This document shows positions 7,756 to 15,229 of a stretch of 64,000 nucleotides of DNA, piece by piece. The stretch lies in NCBI GenBank assembly GCA_031761875.1, contig CP134492.1, positions 2,604,001 through 2,668,000 on the forward strand. Reading direction: 5' to 3'. The position numbers and the translations under genes are program-made. The stretch's first letter is position 1. The number at the start of each line of letters is the position of its first letter. Under the pieces are notes generated by a model that saw only the letters and a list, made by a program, of their open reading frames with translations, ran no database searches and was not told the origin of the DNA. This stretch comes from Bacillaceae bacterium IKA-2. GTDB lineage: Bacteria > Bacillota > Bacilli > Bacillales > Anaerobacillaceae.

Positions 7756-8181
7756 ATGCCTAATCAATGGTTTATGTGGTTTATATTTTTATGGTCTGTA
7801 CTTATCTTAGTATTAATGGCTATCGGTGGCTATTTTATGTTTCGAAAATTTTTAAAAAAGATGCCAAAAGCAGATGGAATGTCAATTTTGGATTGGCAAG
7901 ACCATTTTCTTAAAGAAACAAAGCAGCTTTGGACTGATGAAGGAAAAGCTTTTTTAGAAGAATTAGTAGATCCTGTTCCACTTTTGTTTCGAGATATTGC
8001 GAGAGACAAAATTGCCGGAAAAATTGGTGAATTAGCGCTTGAGGAAAACGCCACGGAAATAACAAGTAATCTCATCATAAAAGGATATTGTTTAGCTACA
8101 CCAAAGCGTGATCATAAGTTTTTAGTAAAAAAATTAACCGAAAAAAACATTGATAAATCTACTTACGCACAATATTTATGA
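7756..8181 (+). CDS. DUF2621 membrane protein (YneK-like)
   Basis: The 141-residue protein has one N-terminal membrane helix (about residues 8-30) and a cytoplasmic domain rich in Asp, Glu and Lys. The sequence resembles the DUF2621 family, represented in B. subtilis by YneK. The function is unknown. In B. subtilis yneK lies beside ccdC (yneJ); here ccdC is present about 3 kb away with spore-coat-like genes between them, which supports the assignment. The start ATG follows GAGGTGG at proper spacing, and a strong terminator follows the stop. Confidence 0.78.
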   Translation: MPNQWFMWFIFLWSVLILVLMAIGGYFMFRKFLKKMPKADGMSILDWQDHFLKETKQLWTDEGKAFLEELVDPVPLLFRDIARDKIAGKIGELALEENATEITSNLIIKGYCLATPKRDHKFLVKKLTEKNIDKSTYAQYL

Positions 8182-8186
8182 ATTCG

Positions 8187-8230
8187 AAAAACAATGGTTT
8201 AGCCGAATATTTAGCTGAACCATTGTTTTT
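8187..8230 (+). terminator. Intrinsic terminator of the DUF2621 gene
   Basis: AAAAACAATGGTT and AACCATTGTTTTT form a 13-bp perfect stem immediately after the stop codon. Confidence 0.85.
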
Positions 8231-8322: not shown

Positions 8323-8349
8323 ACCTAGTCAGTTGTTACGCATACGATA
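8323..8349 (+). promoter_or_regulatory. Sigma-K-like promoter of the coat-like gene at 8381
   Basis: AC at 8323-8324, a 16-base spacer and CATACGATA at 8341-8349 match the mother-cell sigma-K pattern (AC, 16-17 bases, CATANNNTA). It lies 31 bases before the start codon, which fits a late spore-coat gene. Confidence 0.55.
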
Positions 8350-8380
8350 GTTTTATATTGAGCCTAAAGGGGGAACATTT

Positions 8381-9163
8381 ATGACCCAATCTTCTAAAAA
8401 CAATACAGTAGTTCCAGAATCAAAAACTCCAATAAAGTATTCTGAGAATAGGGAGTGTCATCCACAAGTTAGTCTTGGGAAAATTATTACAAAGGTGCCT
8501 GTTGTTCTTGCTGAGCTAACCCTACAAGTGAATATCGATGCAAAAACCACTTTTCCTGAACCAGTATTAGAAATTAAAGATATTAAAAAGAGGGTAAAAT
8601 TAACACAATGTCGCTTATTATTGCCAACAAATAAATTATTTGTAAAAGGCGTTGTTCGTAAAAATATTCAATATGCTAGCCCTTGTAGAGATATAGCAGA
8701 AAGTACTTCAACGTCGGTAGCTTCAGATATGCATTCCTATACAGTAGAAATTCCCTTTGAATGTGTAACAGAGATTAAGAAGTACTTAACAAAGCCTGTT
8801 ATGCCTAAAATTAATTCGCAGCAAGAATTCGATTTTGTTGTTGCAAAGTCGCTGTCTAATGGTTTACTAGAAAAGGATGAATACCTTTCTAGTGATCTTT
8901 CTCAATTCCATCAGGAAAGCACGCATTATTACAATGAATTACCATTTTGTGAATTATTATCTAGCCAAATTATAGAATGGGACGAAGCAATTGATCGAAT
9001 GCCCCTCCCAAATACAGCTCCTCTTGACGAAGGATATTTTTCTACAGTGGAAGAAAAGATGGTGCTTGATTTAACTTTAAATGTACTCCAAAAACAGCAA
9101 ATTCTCGTTACCTCAGCAACAAATAATGAGGATGATGATGGTGATTACAAGGAATGCGATTGA
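8381..9163 (+). CDS. Spore-coat-like protein with a SPOCS/DUF3794-like region (CsxC-type)
   Basis: The 260-residue protein has a core at about residues 40-105 (KVPVVLAELTLQVNIDA, then LFVKGVVRKNIQYASP). This core also occurs in the genes at 9296 and 10400. The core resembles DUF3794/SPOCS-type spore surface proteins, including those databases call CsxC or BC_2427-like. I infer a structural role in the outer spore layers. A sigma-K-like promoter precedes it, which agrees with late mother-cell expression. The C-terminal part holds another beta-rich stretch ending in an acidic tail (NNEDDDGDYKE). The start ATG follows AAGGGGG. Exact naming is uncertain. Confidence 0.65.
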   Translation: MTQSSKNNTVVPESKTPIKYSENRECHPQVSLGKIITKVPVVLAELTLQVNIDAKTTFPEPVLEIKDIKKRVKLTQCRLLLPTNKLFVKGVVRKNIQYASPCRDIAESTSTSVASDMHSYTVEIPFECVTEIKKYLTKPVMPKINSQQEFDFVVAKSLSNGLLEKDEYLSSDLSQFHQESTHYYNELPFCELLSSQIIEWDEAIDRMPLPNTAPLDEGYFSTVEEKMVLDLTLNVLQKQQILVTSATNNEDDDGDYKECD

Positions 9164-9206
9164 AATGTGTTTGTACCAGTAACTAAAAATATCCAGAAAA
9201 AATCAG

Positions 9207-9238
9207 AGAGGCTGACACTTTTAAGTCAGCTTCCTTTT
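9207..9238 (+). terminator. Intrinsic terminator after the coat-like gene
   Basis: GAGGCTGAC and GTCAGCTTC pair (one G-U) around an 8-base loop, followed by CTTTT. Confidence 0.55.
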
Positions 9239-9295
9239 AAGATATCCAACAAACATACATAGAAAAATTTTTCTTATAAGGAGGCGAATCACGAA

Positions 9296-10276
9296 ATGAG
9301 CGCATCGAAAAAGACCTCAGATAAAATATTTGTGCCAAACAATCATAAAAAGAAGAAAACTAATCCCAATCATTTACCCTATGAAACAAATCTAAAACAG
9401 GCACCGATTCCAAAAATATTCCTTCCTCCAAAAACTACTCCTACGCGAATAAAATTTGGTTTAAATAGTAATAAAAATATTTCTAATCTAAAGGCCCAAG
9501 ATGACGATACACTCATAGTAGAAACTAAAGAGGAAACAACCCAGCCTAAATTTGAAGAAAAAGTAATTGATGAGGTTAAGGACCAAATAGTGTCACCCAT
9601 TGAACACGAAGCAAAAGCGGCTATTCCACTTCGTCTTAAACGGAGAAGATCACCAATTCGAACCGGTAAAAGTCGATCTATTCATGCTAGAAAAGTAAAT
9701 CCAAATATGACGTCTCAAAGTAGTGAGTCGAATCAAAAGCAATGGCCAATCATAAAAGTGCCGATACTGCTTTCAAGAGTAAATATTGATTACAACATCG
9801 TTCATTCGGCGAACTTAATAGTACCGAATTCTAGTATCGTAAAAACTAATTGGTTTCTACACTCCTATGAAGGCCGAATACTCCTTCCTAGTAACACTTT
9901 GTTTCTTAAAGGGATTTTCATTTTAGATGTTGAATTTAACAGTCAAAATGGTCACAATACTATTCATAACAAAAAAATTCCGATACCATGGAAAAAAACG
10001 ACAAAAGTTAACTGGATCAAAGAACCAAGTCTGTCATTAAGCAACGAAAAACAGTATATGTTCCAATCTTCACCTGATAAAGGGGAGATTAGCTTTCATC
10101 ATCAATCAGAAAAAAATTATGTAGATCCGATTCAATATGAGCTGCGACGATTAAACTTCATTTGGCATGATGAGGTCAAACCTCAGGTAGACAGTTCACT
10201 ACTATGTATCCTGGGAACTGCACAGTTATCATTTGATCTATTACAACGACAATTAATTGACCTGAACTTGTTTTAA
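9296..10276 (+). CDS. Divergent spore-coat-like protein with a long basic N-terminus
   Basis: The 326-residue protein begins with about 150 low-complexity residues rich in Lys, Pro, Asn and Thr, including a basic block (LRLKRRRSPIRTGKSR). A domain follows that aligns with the neighbouring coat-like proteins (KVPILLSRVNIDYNI, then LLPSNTLFLKGIFILDVEF). The core is more diverged: the KNIQY motif is lost, and the cysteines found in both relatives' cores are absent here. The basic disordered head could bind other coat components or nucleic acid, but that is a guess. It has its own ribosome site (AAGGAGG, 11 bases before ATG) and shares a strong terminator with the convergent gene at 10400. Confidence 0.6.
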   Translation: MSASKKTSDKIFVPNNHKKKKTNPNHLPYETNLKQAPIPKIFLPPKTTPTRIKFGLNSNKNISNLKAQDDDTLIVETKEETTQPKFEEKVIDEVKDQIVSPIEHEAKAAIPLRLKRRRSPIRTGKSRSIHARKVNPNMTSQSSESNQKQWPIIKVPILLSRVNIDYNIVHSANLIVPNSSIVKTNWFLHSYEGRILLPSNTLFLKGIFILDVEFNSQNGHNTIHNKKIPIPWKKTTKVNWIKEPSLSLSNEKQYMFQSSPDKGEISFHHQSEKNYVDPIQYELRRLNFIWHDEVKPQVDSSLLCILGTAQLSFDLLQRQLIDLNLF

Positions 10277-10353
10277 AGTGAAAAATACCATCAGTAGAAA
10301 GTTACTAAACGAAAAAAAATGATAAGAAATACTGTTTGTACAATTAATTTAAA

Positions 10354-10393
10354 AATAATTTAGGGGTTCTCAGATGAGATCCCCTAAATTATT
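10354..10393. terminator. Bidirectional terminator between convergent coat-like genes
   Basis: AATAATTTAGGGG and CCCCTAAATTATT form a 13-bp perfect stem between the genes ending at 10276 (+) and 10400 (-). Confidence 0.85.
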
Positions 10394-10399
10394 ATACTA

Positions 10400-11218
10400 T
10401 TAACGATTCATTCTGCCGAAAATTCGTTTAAGTCTATCTAGAGCAACTGGTTTTGCTGTTGTTTGAGTTGATGTCTCATTTTCAGCAACTGCGTTTGTGT
10501 CTCCACCATTTAAATCTGTAGAAACCTGTTGTTTTTGAGTCAATTTGACTAATAAAAGGACTTCCATTTTCTCAGTCACTTGATTAAATCTGCCCATATT
10601 ATCAAAGTTATGATAAATATCCAAACTATTAACTGCGGAAGCCATTATTTTACACGTAATTGGCTCATTGTAAATTTCAAATGTTAATGAACCTGTCTCA
10701 CAGCGGTCTGCTCCATGCCCGTCTTTAGCTATTTGTCTTCTCTCTAAGACAGAATTTTTATTACTAAATTCAAAACCAAGAGGATAAAACAATTCATTTT
10801 CAAGTTCCACCGATTGAATACAGCTAAACGGAACATCGACGCTATAATCACGCATAAAACCACTTGCACTTTCTACATATTGAATATTTTTATGAACAAC
10901 ACCTGTAATAAATAATTTTACTGTCCCCGTTGGATCCAATATTGATGGGACTGCTTTACATTGTCTCAATGAGATGTTCTTCCTCATCCATTTAATTTCT
11001 CTTGCTGATGTAGGCAAACTAATATTCGCTTCTACATCTGCTTGTAATAACACATCTACAAGAGGAACTGCAACATCTACAGCACTTGGTAGATTTGTAT
11101 TAGCAAAATCAGCTGGATCAAATCCCTCAATAACCTGACAAAATACATCTTGTGTATCTGCCTGATCACCTGGCATTGGTTCCGGACACTTGCCAGTAAG
11201 ACTAGTATTTCTTTGCAT
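10400..11218 (-). CDS. Spore-coat-like protein with a SPOCS/DUF3794-like region (CsxC-type)
   Basis: The 272-residue protein shares its core with the two genes on the opposite strand: AVPLVDVLLQADVEANISLP at about 48-67 and LFITGVVHKNIQYVES near 100-115. It then has a second conserved part ending VTEKMEVLLLVKLTQKQQV, which also closes the gene at 8381. The tail is basic (DRLKRIFGRMNR). A role on the spore surface is inferred from this family and from a CATAAAGTA element resembling a sigma-K -10 box upstream. The start ATG follows AAGGAGTGAAGG. Confidence 0.68.
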   Translation of the reverse strand: MQRNTSLTGKCPEPMPGDQADTQDVFCQVIEGFDPADFANTNLPSAVDVAVPLVDVLLQADVEANISLPTSAREIKWMRKNISLRQCKAVPSILDPTGTVKLFITGVVHKNIQYVESASGFMRDYSVDVPFSCIQSVELENELFYPLGFEFSNKNSVLERRQIAKDGHGADRCETGSLTFEIYNEPITCKIMASAVNSLDIYHNFDNMGRFNQVTEKMEVLLLVKLTQKQQVSTDLNGGDTNAVAENETSTQTTAKPVALDRLKRIFGRMNR

Positions 11219-11250
11219 TAACCTTCACTCCTTTTTTTTTGTTAAATCAA

Positions 11251-11284
11251 AATCGTATTTAACTTGCTAAATCAAAATACGATT
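11251..11284. repeat. Inverted repeat in the leader of the coat-like gene
   Basis: AATCGTATTT and AAATACGATT are perfect 10-base inverted arms separated by 14 bases. They lie between the putative promoter and start of the gene at 10400-11218. It could be an operator or a leader hairpin. Confidence 0.5.
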
Positions 11285-11298
11285 ATTTGATTTCTCTT

Positions 11299-11307
11299 TA
11301 CTTTATG
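11299..11307 (-). promoter_or_regulatory. Possible sigma-K -10 element of the gene at 10400-11218
   Basis: The minus strand reads CATAAAGTA, matching CATANNNTA, about 80 bases before the start codon. The -35 position has GC rather than AC. Confidence 0.4.
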
Positions 11308-11403: not shown

Positions 11404-11434
11404 CTGATAATTCTATGCACTTTTTAGGTTAATT

Positions 11435-11941
11435 TTATATAGAAGCAACCTTATTAGGTAAAGAATTGTTTGTTTGTTTCTCTTTCTCCAACACTTTTTC
11501 AAGCTTTTTAAAACCAATAAACATCGAAATTCGCCATGGCAATATCATGCCGTAAGCAAGAATAAAGAACATTCCACTTAAGTGGATCGGATCAATGTAG
11601 AACCCTAAAATATATTTCGAAATCAACCGAGCGATTAATAATCCTACTAAAATAAATAGAAATGCTTTTGTTTGCTTTAAGTAAATTTGGTCGTTCTTGA
11701 TTTCGAATTTTGAAGTTCTTGCTAAAAAAAACGAAAAAAACAATCCAATTGCTAGCGCCTCAAAAACTTGTGTAAAACTAATTTGCGCTGGTTCATATAA
11801 AAACATAAAAAAACCTGTAGACATAAATATTGGCGGTAAAATTATTTTTTTTACAGTCGCTGGATTTTTAGCTGCTCTCATTCGGATAAAAAAAGCCATG
11901 AAAGCCATAAATACAGCAACTCCTGTTGCTAAATATGTCAT
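11435..11941 (-). CDS. ccdC: CcdC family membrane protein (cytochrome c biogenesis region)
   Basis: The 168-residue protein has about five membrane helices and matches the CcdC (YneJ, DUF1453) family. In B. subtilis it lies in the ccdA-yneI-ccdC-yneK cluster; its exact function there is not established. I place the start at the ATG at 11941 (MTYLATG), or the GTG just before it at 11944, because the strong GGGGAGG lies upstream of these codons but downstream of the more distal ATG at 11971. ccdA itself is not in this window. Confidence 0.82.
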   Translation of the reverse strand: MTYLATGVAVFMAFMAFFIRMRAAKNPATVKKIILPPIFMSTGFFMFLYEPAQISFTQVFEALAIGLFFSFFLARTSKFEIKNDQIYLKQTKAFLFILVGLLIARLISKYILGFYIDPIHLSGMFFILAYGMILPWRISMFIGFKKLEKVLEKEKQTNNSLPNKVASI

Positions 11942-12027
11942 CACAAATTTACAGCCTCCCCTATTTAACACTGTAATAACAATTATAACACAGGTTAATT
12001 TGTATCTTTATTAAATTTTTCTTAATT

Positions 12028-12262: not shown

Positions 12263-12469
12263 TTAAACAACATCATAGCCAGCTTCCTCAATTTCATTTT
12301 TAAGGACGGCTTCGTCAACCTTTGTACGATCAAAAGAAACTGCAACGTTTTTTGCTTCTAGGTTCACTTCAGCACTAGCAACACCATCTAGTTTTGCTAA
12401 CGCTCCTTCAACAGCCGACTTACAATGACCACAACTCATACCTTCTACTGAAATTGTAACTTCATTCAT
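12263..12469 (-). CDS. copZ: Copper chaperone CopZ
   Basis: The 68-residue protein is a single heavy-metal-associated domain with the Cu(I)-binding motif GMSCGHC near the N-terminus. It carries Cu(I) in the cytoplasm and delivers it to the N-terminal domains of CopA or to CsoR. It is the last gene of the csoR-copA-copZ operon, 25 bases after copA. The length is typical. Confidence 0.95.
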   Translation of the reverse strand: MNEVTISVEGMSCGHCKSAVEGALAKLDGVASAEVNLEAKNVAVSFDRTKVDEAVLKNEIEEAGYDVV

Positions 12470-12494
12470 TTTCCAACACTCCCAATCAATAATT

Positions 12495-14882
12495 TTATTT
12501 AATTTTTACGCGTTTTAAGCGTAATGAATTACTAACAACAGAAACTGAGCTAAATGCCATCGCTGCGCCCGCAATCCACGGTGCAAGAAGGCCAGCGGCT
12601 GCAATAGGTATCCCGATCGAGTTATAAACAAAGGCCCAGAACAAGTTTTGCTTAATATTACGCATTGTTGCTCTGCTTAGTTTAATTGCTTCTGGAATCG
12701 ATCGTAAGTCACCACGCATTAACGTTATATCAGAAGCCTCCATCGCGACATCTGTCCCAGTACCAATCGCCATTCCGATATCAGCAAGGGCAAGAGCCGG
12801 GGCGTCGTTAATCCCGTCACCAACCATAATAACTTTTTTCCCTGAATCTTTTAACTCTTTTATTTTGTCAGCCTTTTTATTTGGCAAAACTTCCGCAAAA
12901 ACATGATCGATATTGACTTGCTTGGCAATCGCTTGAGCTGTCCTCTCATTATCACCAGTTAACATAATTACTGTATAACCCATCTTTTTTAACTGATCAA
13001 CAGCTTCTTTAGAACTATCCTTTACTTGGTCAGCAACAGCAATGATACCTGCGGTTAGACCGGCAACACTAATTAACATCACTGTTTTACCATCTTCCTC
13101 AAAACGGGTCATTTCCTTTTCTAGCAGACTAAATTCGATATTATTTTCACGAAGAAGCTTTCGTGTCCCGATGAATACTTCTTTTCCATTTAGCTCAGCT
13201 TTAAGGCCATATCCAGGAAGTGCTTCAAACCGGCTTACTTCATCAAATTTTATCTCTTCGTTTTGAGCAGCTTTGACAATTGCTTGACCTAATGGATGCT
13301 CTGACCCCTTCTCGATCGAAGCTGTAAGCCTAAGCAACTCGTTACGCTCCCAACCGGCAACTGTCATAACATCTGTTAATTCGGGTTCACCTTTTGTAAT
13401 TGTTCCCGTTTTATCTAAAACAATTGTATCTGTTTTATAGGCGCGCTCTAAGTGTTCGCCACCTTTATATAAAATTCCATTTTCAGCACCTCTGCCTGTT
13501 CCGACCATAATCGAAGTTGGTGTCGCAAGTCCCAATGCACAAGGACAAGCGATAACAAGAACGGCAGTAAAATTAATTAATGCGACTTGAAAACTGGCTC
13601 CTAAAAAGAAGTACCAAGTAACAAAAGAAATTATCGCAATCAATAAGGCTGTTGGCACAAAATACCCAGAAATAATATCTGCAAGACGTTGAATCGGCGC
13701 TTTCGAACCTTGCGCATCTTCAACCACTTTAATAATTTGAGCTAGTACTGTTTCTTTGCCTACTTTTGTGGCTTTCATTTTAAACGAACCATGCTTATTA
13801 ATTGTTGCTCCAATAACTTCATCATCAATACTTTTATCAACCGGAATACTTTCGCCGGTTAGCATCGACTCATCAATAGTAGTATATCCTTCAACGATGA
13901 TTCCATCGACTGGAATTTTTTCACCTGGTTTTACAACGACAATATCATTAATTGTAACGTCTTCAATCGCGATTTCTCTTTCTAGACCATCACGAATAAC
14001 GACTGCTTTTTTGGCCTGTAAACCCATCATTTTTTTGATTGCTTCAGACGTACGTCCTTTTGCTCTAGCTTCTAATAATTTACCTAGTAATATTAAGGTA
14101 ATGATAATCGCACTTGTTTCAAAAAACAGCATCACTTCACCTTGAAGAACTAACCATACTGAATAGAAATACGCTGCTGATGTTCCCATCGCGACAAGAA
14201 CATCCATATTAGCACTGCCACCTCGAAGCGACTTATATGCACCTCGATAAAACTGCAAACCCGCATAGAATTGGACAGGAGTTGCAAGTGCCCATTGCAA
14301 GTAACCGTTCATAAACCAATGCGGTAGAATCATTTGATCTGGAGAAAAATGATCAATCATCATCACAAAAAGTGGTATTGAGAACACTAACGCAATGATA
14401 AACATCCGTTTTTGCTTAGCAATTTCTTTATTTTTTAAATCTTGCTTTTCTACTTTACTGTCTTTCAGTGGATTAGCTTTGAAACCAATTTTTTCAATAC
14501 GTTTAATAATTTCTGTTTCTGAAACAAAGCCATCAAAATATTCGACAGTGCCCCGTTCAAGTGGTAAATTAACCGTCGCTAGTTGAACACCTTCTAATTT
14601 ATTCAAAACCTTTTCAATTCGTGAAGAGCAAGCTGCACATGTCATTCCCTCAATAGCAAGGTCTATTTTTATTTTACTGACTCTGAATCCTATTTTTTCG
14701 ATTTTCGCTTCGAGCTCATTTAAAGAGATCTTAGCAGGGTCAAATGAAATCGCCGCGTTCTCCATGGCTAGATTTACAGAAGCACTGACACTTTCCTGCT
14801 TATTCAAAACTTTTTCAATTCTAGAGGAGCAGGCTGCACAAGTCATGCCTTCGATTTTCAACTGAACGTTCTTCTCACCCAT
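12495..14882 (-). CDS. copA: Copper-exporting P1B-type ATPase CopA
   Basis: The 795-residue protein has two N-terminal metal-binding domains, each with GMTCAAC (Cys at about 15/18 and 82/85), then eight membrane helices. It carries the Cu(I) transport motif CPC in VIACPCALGLATP, the phosphorylation site DKTGTITKGE, the HP motif (SEHPLG) and the hinge GDGINDAPA. It pumps Cu(I) out of the cytoplasm. It sits between csoR and copZ on the same strand with short gaps, so it should be induced by copper through CsoR. Length and all key residues are intact. Confidence 0.97.
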   Translation of the reverse strand: MGEKNVQLKIEGMTCAACSSRIEKVLNKQESVSASVNLAMENAAISFDPAKISLNELEAKIEKIGFRVSKIKIDLAIEGMTCAACSSRIEKVLNKLEGVQLATVNLPLERGTVEYFDGFVSETEIIKRIEKIGFKANPLKDSKVEKQDLKNKEIAKQKRMFIIALVFSIPLFVMMIDHFSPDQMILPHWFMNGYLQWALATPVQFYAGLQFYRGAYKSLRGGSANMDVLVAMGTSAAYFYSVWLVLQGEVMLFFETSAIIITLILLGKLLEARAKGRTSEAIKKMMGLQAKKAVVIRDGLEREIAIEDVTINDIVVVKPGEKIPVDGIIVEGYTTIDESMLTGESIPVDKSIDDEVIGATINKHGSFKMKATKVGKETVLAQIIKVVEDAQGSKAPIQRLADIISGYFVPTALLIAIISFVTWYFFLGASFQVALINFTAVLVIACPCALGLATPTSIMVGTGRGAENGILYKGGEHLERAYKTDTIVLDKTGTITKGEPELTDVMTVAGWERNELLRLTASIEKGSEHPLGQAIVKAAQNEEIKFDEVSRFEALPGYGLKAELNGKEVFIGTRKLLRENNIEFSLLEKEMTRFEEDGKTVMLISVAGLTAGIIAVADQVKDSSKEAVDQLKKMGYTVIMLTGDNERTAQAIAKQVNIDHVFAEVLPNKKADKIKELKDSGKKVIMVGDGINDAPALALADIGMAIGTGTDVAMEASDITLMRGDLRSIPEAIKLSRATMRNIKQNLFWAFVYNSIGIPIAAAGLLAPWIAGAAMAFSSVSVVSNSLRLKRVKIK

Positions 14883-14902
14883 ATCTCTATCACCCAGTTT
14901 GT

Positions 14903-15229
14903 TTATGATTTTGAGAATTGTTGAATTACTTTCATCAATTCTTCAATTGCTTCGTCACCTTCACCGTCGACAACTGCTTGACTAACACAACCTCTTGTAT
15001 GGTCATCTAAAAGGGTATAGCCTACTTTTTTTAAAGCTGCACTAACAGCTGAGACTTGTACTAATACATCGACACAATAGCGATCATCTTCTATCATCCG
15101 TTGAACCCCTCGAACTTGACCCTCGATTCGTTTCAAACGATTGATAAGCTTATGTTTGTCTTCTTCACGCCTTTTTACAGCAGGACTTTTTTCAGAATGG
15201 AGGGGTATATTTAATATCTCATTATCCAT
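14903..15229 (-). CDS. csoR: Copper-sensing repressor CsoR
   Basis: The 108-residue all-helical repressor has the Cu(I) ligand set Cys52, His77 and Cys81 (RYCVDV; DDHTRGC), with the same spacing as other CsoR proteins. It binds DNA when copper-free and leaves it when Cu(I) binds. It is the first gene of the copper operon, and an operator lies in its own promoter. The N-terminus is about 10 residues longer than in B. subtilis. Confidence 0.95.
   Translation of the reverse strand: MDNEILNIPLHSEKSPAVKRREEDKHKLINRLKRIEGQVRGVQRMIEDDRYCVDVLVQVSAVSAALKKVGYTLLDDHTRGCVSQAVVDGEGDEAIEELMKVIQQFSKS

Follow-up and report, generated by a model that had tools for sequence, protein, structure and literature searches.

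The 64,000-nucleotide stretch of DNA from Bacillaceae bacterium IKA-2 analysed here (GenBank assembly GCA_031761875.1, contig CP134492.1, positions 2,604,001 to 2,668,000; hereafter the window) carries three related genes between yneK and ccdC, referred to as CsxC1, MID, and CsxC3, whose open reading frames (ORFs) are all intact. CsxC1 (8381-9163, plus strand) encodes a CsxC family protein of 260 residues with 6 cysteines and an isoelectric point (pI) of 5.0; MID (9296-10276, plus strand) is an ORF of 326 residues with 1 cysteine; and CsxC3 (10400-11218, minus strand) encodes a CsxC family protein of 272 residues with 6 cysteines. The interval 8323-11307 is bounded by two sigma-K-like elements, starting at the -35 of the first and ending at the -10 of the second, and the original prediction had described it as a cluster of three related spore-coat-like genes forming a lineage-specific spore surface locus. 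The ORFs at 8381, 9296, and 10400 were confirmed, with the correction that the third gene lies on the opposite strand, convergent to the other two. The evidence presented here suggests that the cluster is probably a conserved Bacillaceae module for the spore surface in reduced and relocated form; its products would be synthesized late by the mother cell as structural subunits of the outermost layer of the spore.

To our knowledge, only a few exosporium families have been named outside the Bacillus cereus group, CsxC among them. The family was named from a 273-residue, 14-cysteine protein of purified Clostridium sporogenes exosporium, which was detected by mass spectrometry and came from a gel band of the exosporium (PMC4942563). 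CsxC1 matched the NCBIfam model NF045794 (CsxC_fam) with 257.3 bits over model positions 1-202 of 203, and CsxC3 with 165.9 bits over positions 2-202 of 203, so that both exceeded the curated cut-off of 135 across nearly the whole model. MID reached 23.2 bits, far below this cut-off, and no Pfam or NCBIfam family was matched above its own; it was kept as a divergent relative and not as a member. Profile-profile comparison gave E=6.8e-24 for CsxC1 and CsxC3, E=4.7e-12 for MID and CsxC1 (hhalign), and E=1.3e-6 for MID and CsxC3, which places the predicted relatedness of the three genes beyond chance. At the level of sequence, common ancestry of the three proteins, and CsxC membership of CsxC1 and CsxC3, are established. 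The core motif FxxGVVxKNIQY, which had been attributed to all three, is present in CsxC1 (FVKGVVRKNIQY) and CsxC3 (FITGVVHKNIQY); MID lacks it and has FLKGIFILDVEF. Apart from the divergence of MID, the window proteins differ from the C. sporogenes protein in belonging to a three-paralogue module and in their cysteine content, and since they contain 6, 1, and 6 cysteines, the cysteine-rich label of the founding member is not transferable to them. CsxC1-type and CsxC3-type orthologues in module loci contain 3-14 cysteines.

Profile searches thus returned homologues from a spore-surface family, and among the family types suggested for comparison the CsxC assignment held for CsxC1 and CsxC3, while the SPOCS and BC_2427 cut-offs were not reached. 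CsxC1 also matched PF25250 (DUF7852) with 55.7 bits against a cut-off of 22, which CsxC3 did not attain (18 bits); this family was matched by 62/63 CsxC members at E<=0.01. CsxC1 is related to the BC_2427 family (NF045793) without being a member, scoring 67.2 of the 200 bits required (CsxC3, 18.3 bits), and a literature search found no publication for this family name. The SPOCS domain of SipL (PF12673), which we take to be of the DUF3794 type, bears a recurrent weak likeness to the CsxC family, being matched by 22/63 CsxC members at E<=0.01. On this similarity the cluster could be read as encoding SPOCS-type morphogens, distant SipL/DUF3794 relatives acting as adaptors that recruit other coat proteins and not as bulk structural subunits. 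This reading is improbable: CsxC1, at 20.7 bits, lies under the Pfam cut-off of 23.6, only 2/33 MID members match the domain, and the founding CsxC was observed in an exosporium gel band (PMC4942563).

The wider distribution of the genes was determined in 77 loci, comprising 58 sampled from a genome scan with at least that many matching loci and 19 further stretches including the window's own, with profiles built from five loci (L036, which is that of the window, L038, L044, L053, and L054). A window-type CsxC1 was present in 39/77 loci, and removal of two whose sequence ends shortly after the gene (L060 and L064) left the 37 loci used throughout. MID lies 3' of CsxC1 on the same strand in all 37, that is, wherever there is sequence beyond CsxC1, and CsxC3 is convergent in 34/37, the exceptions being Halobacillus alkaliphilus (L079), where none is shown, and two Solibacillus loci with a same-strand gene instead. 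An extra CsxC gene, CsxC1', is found upstream in 29/37 loci. The same paralogues occur in the same order across the Bacillaceae and Caryophanaceae. In a phylogenetic tree built on 94 rows that scored at least 60 bits, taken from 34 loci chosen by hand, CsxC1 (98/99), CsxC3 (100/99), and MID (100/100) each formed one clade containing many genera, and in all three the window gene was sister to that of a congener, G002; the label CsxC1' required 3 changes and does not mark one clean clade. Order-wide, CsxC_fam was matched in 81/397 genomes, 80 of them above cut-off, and MID (>=66 bits) in 36/397, and in all 36 the contig also carries a CsxC match on that strand, at a start-to-start distance of 1.2-2.3 kb. 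MID matches of <=64 bits were left out as mostly CsxC proteins aligned over the first ~120 positions, although a few span more (e.g., 53.7 bits in G065 and 26.6 bits in G189). The conserved order, the multi-genus clades, and the linkage of MID to CsxC together argue that the paralogues are old, have stayed together, and are no novelty of this lineage; lineage-specific genes, as originally proposed, are ruled out by the presence of the module across many genera. Variation within the module includes three tandem CsxC3 copies in Neobacillus mesonae (L067:10801-13445), two of which lie very near each other in the tree. In G002, a module-adjacent gene (L038:4976-5371) encodes a 131-residue protein with 20 cysteines and many histidines, which matched neither Pfam nor NCBIfam at E<=0.1.

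Sigma-K-like elements had been predicted ahead of two of the genes, and the one before CsxC1 was upheld. It lies at 8323-8349 on the plus strand, about 40 nt 5' of the gene, and has the form AC-N16-CATACGATA, with AC at 8323-8324 and CATACGATA at 8341-8349, an exact match to the sigma-K consensus pattern AC-N16/17-CATANNNTA. The element before CsxC3 has an exact -10, CATAAAGTA (11299-11307, minus strand), and a non-consensus -35 that lacks AC. Across loci, a weighted sigma-K score, which was devised after the plain pattern counts had been seen, reached the threshold of >=6.5 upstream of CsxC1 in 30/37 loci and of the other CsxC genes in 21/32 regions, compared with 40/305 control genes; MID remained below threshold in 36/37 loci and reached it in one. 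Some promoter distances in the relatives, where ORF starts were called mechanically, are off, as seen in positive positions in this scoring. The pattern CATANNNTA with a correctly spaced AC was enriched before CsxC1 (11/37 versus 24/305, p=0.0004), and plain CATANNNTA before the other CsxC genes (21/32, p=1e-7) and CsxC3 (13/37, p=0.03); before MID it was rarer than in controls (2/37, p=0.04), and none was found 5' of MID in the window. The Fisher tests behind these pattern counts, and behind those on the upstream regions of the actin-like genes described below, treat related genomes as independent. The 305 controls include the genes of the linked actin-like protein and are the stricter set; a second set of 544 excludes them and comes from more loci. 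A sigma-70 scan yielded promoters no more numerous than in shuffled sequence.

The gaps between the genes contain potential RNA structures, which were folded later and do not appear in the list of the terminator scan. A terminator-like strong hairpin between yneK and CsxC1 (8187-8230, inverted repeat I3) folds with -22.2 kcal/mol (z -6.6), a weaker one between CsxC1 and MID (9205-9235, plus strand; -15.0 kcal/mol, z -3.8) may act as an attenuator, and the convergent gap between MID and CsxC3 holds a hairpin resembling a bidirectional terminator (10354-10393, inverted repeat I2; -23.4 kcal/mol, z -6.3). The simplest arrangement of transcripts would be one that covers CsxC1 and continues in part into MID, with CsxC3 transcribed separately.

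AlphaFold2 predicted CsxC1 as an eight-strand all-beta domain (mean predicted local distance difference test score, pLDDT, 83.2; predicted template modelling score, pTM, 0.67), and MID as a disordered stretch of about 150 residues ahead of eight strands (mean pLDDT 75.4; pTM 0.54). The N-terminal tail of MID (residues 1-144; 9296-9727, plus strand) has block pLDDT values of 46-73 and no secondary structure, whereas the divergent CsxC-like domain at the C-terminus (9728-10276, plus strand), the part aligned with CsxC1 by hhalign, has values of 82-98 from residue 151 on, most of them above 90. The tail is basic, with a pI of about 10 and 29 Lys and Arg versus 16 Asp and Glu in residues 1-145. 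Tails in the 37 loci range from 8 to 728 residues with a median of 320, three of these lengths (L059, L083, and L091) appearing shortened by domain or start calls, so that the 144 residues of the window represent a short form; the pooled tails are rich in glutamate and serine (15.4% and 13.3%, respectively), the window tail being basic instead. When the CsxC1 and MID models were compared with the PDB, Foldseek returned nothing at E<=0.001 and the best VIA Z was 3.0 (root-mean-square deviation 6.1, 107 aligned); sequence searches with CsxC3 and with the CsxC alignment found no relative of solved structure. The CsxC fold is not called new because no usable PDB match turned up.

The module occupies an unusual site. 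Its left flank is yneK (DUF2621; 7756-8181, plus strand; PF11084, 232 bits) and its right flank ccdC (DUF1453; 11435-11971, minus strand; PF07301, 174 bits). The predicted splitting of this gene pair was borne out, the gap measuring 3,253 bp here versus 102-174 bp (between match ends) in the 5 congeners in which both genes were found (G001, G002, G003, G005, and G006) and in which they are adjacent; G004 gave no yneK match. Since the site is closed in 5/5 congeners, lineage-specificity holds for the position, which alone is peculiar to the genome of the window, the genes themselves being widespread. The usual CsxC site in the genus lies beside nitroreductase-like and amidohydrolase-like genes (named by eye), where the full module is found in G002 and CsxC genes in G001, G003, and G005; in the tree, which does not include G005, the G001 and G003 genes belong to another clade. 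In the genome of the window, the corresponding flanking genes are found at 1475751-1478617, 849 bp apart, and the best CsxC tblastn match in this gap had E=0.42. Relocation, or loss at the genus site combined with gain at the present one, fits these data equally well. G050, which belongs to another family, has a CsxC gene near yneK-ccdC; this gene lies beyond yneK and falls in a different clade.

A mobile-element origin was rejected, as the 72,556 plasmid records searched include 3 with a relative of CsxC1 (E<=1e-5) and none with MID (E<=0.01), and the 50,697 phage records contain no CsxC1 match (E<=0.01). Compositional foreignness was also discarded as uninformative, G+C content being about 33-35% in the module, 31-33% in the nearest flanks, and 37-41% further out. 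A stretch of the Bacillus paramobilis plasmid NZ_CP155625.1 (L132) harbours a pair of CsxC genes together with one collagen-like and one spore-coat gene, and some of its genes are present more than once. A 16-nt A+T-rich inverted pair (I9; 15/16 identical) brackets the module in the window at 8130-8145 (end of yneK) and 11421-11436 (end of ccdC); it was chosen from 16 pairs and has no other copy in the window at <=1 mismatch (0.02 expected).

In relatives, the module is linked to an actin-like protein (ALP), encoded divergently upstream in 36/37 loci, including L081 with its gene split in two, and to an ALP partner of 122-144 residues in 34/37, most of which end in an ILEAFGG-like motif (e.g., ALP at L065:5505-6707 and partner at L056:6256-6627, both minus strand). 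ALP has the domains ALP_N and Alp7A_like_C; the two proteins scanned matched ALP_N with 48-50 bits (cut-off 26). Order-wide, ALP was detected in 34/397 genomes (E<=1e-60), all 34 of which have MID, with ALP divergent from CsxC1 and starting within 3.0 kb of it; conversely, it is present in 34/36 MID genomes, the exceptions being G370 and the genome of the window (G000). Among the 35 full-length genes used for motif and promoter counts, what we take to be the phosphate and adenosine motifs are kept (GDLGGD 35/35, VGGAA 34/35, and a D-x-G-N type 31/35), and an element GCAC-N12-18-CATANNNT, with a mother-cell-type -10, precedes 35/35 compared with 10/544 controls, the pattern having been derived from and counted on one set of sequences. 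Because 10/35 of these regions reach 6.5 by the sigma-K scheme, the -35 part may belong to a different type. The divergent linkage and the almost perfectly shared distribution lead us to propose, as a tentative idea that is somewhat more doubtful than not, that a mother-cell actin-like filament helps to lay down or position the CsxC spore layer; by analogy, ALP and its partner may form a ParM/ParR-like pair. A literature search, in which part of the records were judged by title and the start of the abstract, found no publication linking an actin-like protein to the exosporium. A distant actin-like gene in the genome of the window (L119:6244-7428) was rejected as the actin of the module, being 30% identical to the module type and close to transposase-like ORFs; its region (L119:6244-8061, near position 318,250 of contig G000:C1) also includes a downstream ORF of 207 residues, the surrounding ORFs being named by eye.

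The window is the sole locus of the 37 without ALP, and thus the most surprising feature of the module, the linked actin, is missing from it. As ALP, its partner, CsxC1', and the usual site of the genus are all absent here, the cluster might be taken for a decaying and non-functional remnant of a module on its way out, for which the shortened, basic tail of MID (144 residues versus a median of 320, against Glu/Ser-rich pooled tails) could also speak. Such decay is very unlikely given the three intact frames, the exact CsxC1 promoter, and the identity to the G002 proteins (77% for CsxC1 and 68% for CsxC3), and the upstream CsxC1' is likewise missing in 7 other loci of the 37. If the ALP link is functional, a cytoskeletal filament would enter spore-surface assembly, and the genome of the window would represent a natural experiment in which shell genes have been kept without the actin.

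Clues to function come from the relatives and from the host. In 10/10 long CsxC ORFs examined, which were hand-picked while other ORFs of 320-450 residues were left out, the CsxC domain is N-terminal to collagen-like GXY repeats (L039:4922-7984, minus strand; L088:7926-10541, plus strand; and L124-L131); these proteins are of 347-1020 residues, two of them running off the contig end, and one has a weak match to the BclA C-terminus (25.9 bits, cut-off 38). A comparable arrangement is described in a preprint, where a CsxA-like domain within the larger protein F-Anchor-3 has been suggested to attach a fibre to the lattice of the exosporium (PMC11952670); the likeness lies in the collagen-like repeats carried by CsxC domains here, whereas the protein family is another one, and anchoring is a proposal in both cases, here drawn from sequence. 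A CotZ-like sequence cluster is found near the module in 24/37 loci (one member scanned, 167 bits), and in one locus, that of G052, a BMQ_0737-family morphogenetic spore coat protein with 20 cysteines is module-adjacent (L053:12118-13245). The window itself encodes CotE, SpoVS, and SpoVK, because of which the host is probably a spore former.

Together, these data lead us to suggest that the outermost proteinaceous layer, either the basal layer of the exosporium or its equivalent, has CsxC1 and CsxC3 as structural subunits, and that their compact all-beta CsxC domains would assemble into a sheet on the spore. CsxC1 would be expressed late in the mother cell from the promoter at 8323-8349, MID would probably be read through from the same promoter past the hairpin, and CsxC3 would be expressed from its own weaker promoter. 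MID, a version of the domain bearing a long flexible tail, may space the sheet from the layer below or above it, or tether the two together, and in relatives the collagen-fused CsxC domain may anchor hair-like filaments to the same sheet. We infer the spore location, self-assembly, the tether role of MID, promoter use, and expression timing from the family, order, conserved element, and predicted domain layout described above.

Several observations weigh against this reading. Upstream of CsxC3 the sigma-K score reached threshold in 5/37 loci, which is not significant (Mann-Whitney U test, p=0.056), and plain CATANNNTA was no different before CsxC1 and in controls (11/37 versus 59/305, p=0.19). 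The window proteins are modestly cysteine-rich compared with 14/273 in the founding CsxC (PMC4942563), and the proposed lattice has no counterpart among solved structures by Foldseek or VIA. In the genome of the window, searches found no module-type actin, no further CsxC gene, collagen-fused ones included, and no match to CotZ/ExsY (PF10612), a family that the same search detected in B. subtilis; for these reasons the organism may have no exosporium of the usual kind, or may employ the proteins as part of an ordinary coat. It is accordingly conceivable, though on balance unlikely, that the products are outer-coat (crust-like) or interspace proteins and not exosporium subunits, that the name CsxC misleads as to the layer, and that the collagen fusions use the domain as a coat anchor. 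The presence of CotE and the few cysteines would suit such a location, but the founding CsxC was obtained from purified exosporium (PMC4942563), and in relatives CotZ-like genes accompany the module in the majority of loci noted above. The assignment to the outermost layer is therefore still preferred, and the original spore-surface reading was right in kind, supported by the family, with two of the three proteins above the CsxC_fam cut-off, and by the collagen fusions in relatives; the cluster is a stripped and relocated form of a widespread module. The CsxC family gains a fixed genetic setting, a partner protein in MID, and fusions to collagen repeats, through which the role of CsxC as a shell subunit becomes directly testable.

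Adjacent to ccdC, at 12263-15229 of the window on the minus strand, ORFs for a small metal-binding chaperone-like protein, a copper-type P-ATPase-like protein, and a CsoR-like protein were recognized by eye.

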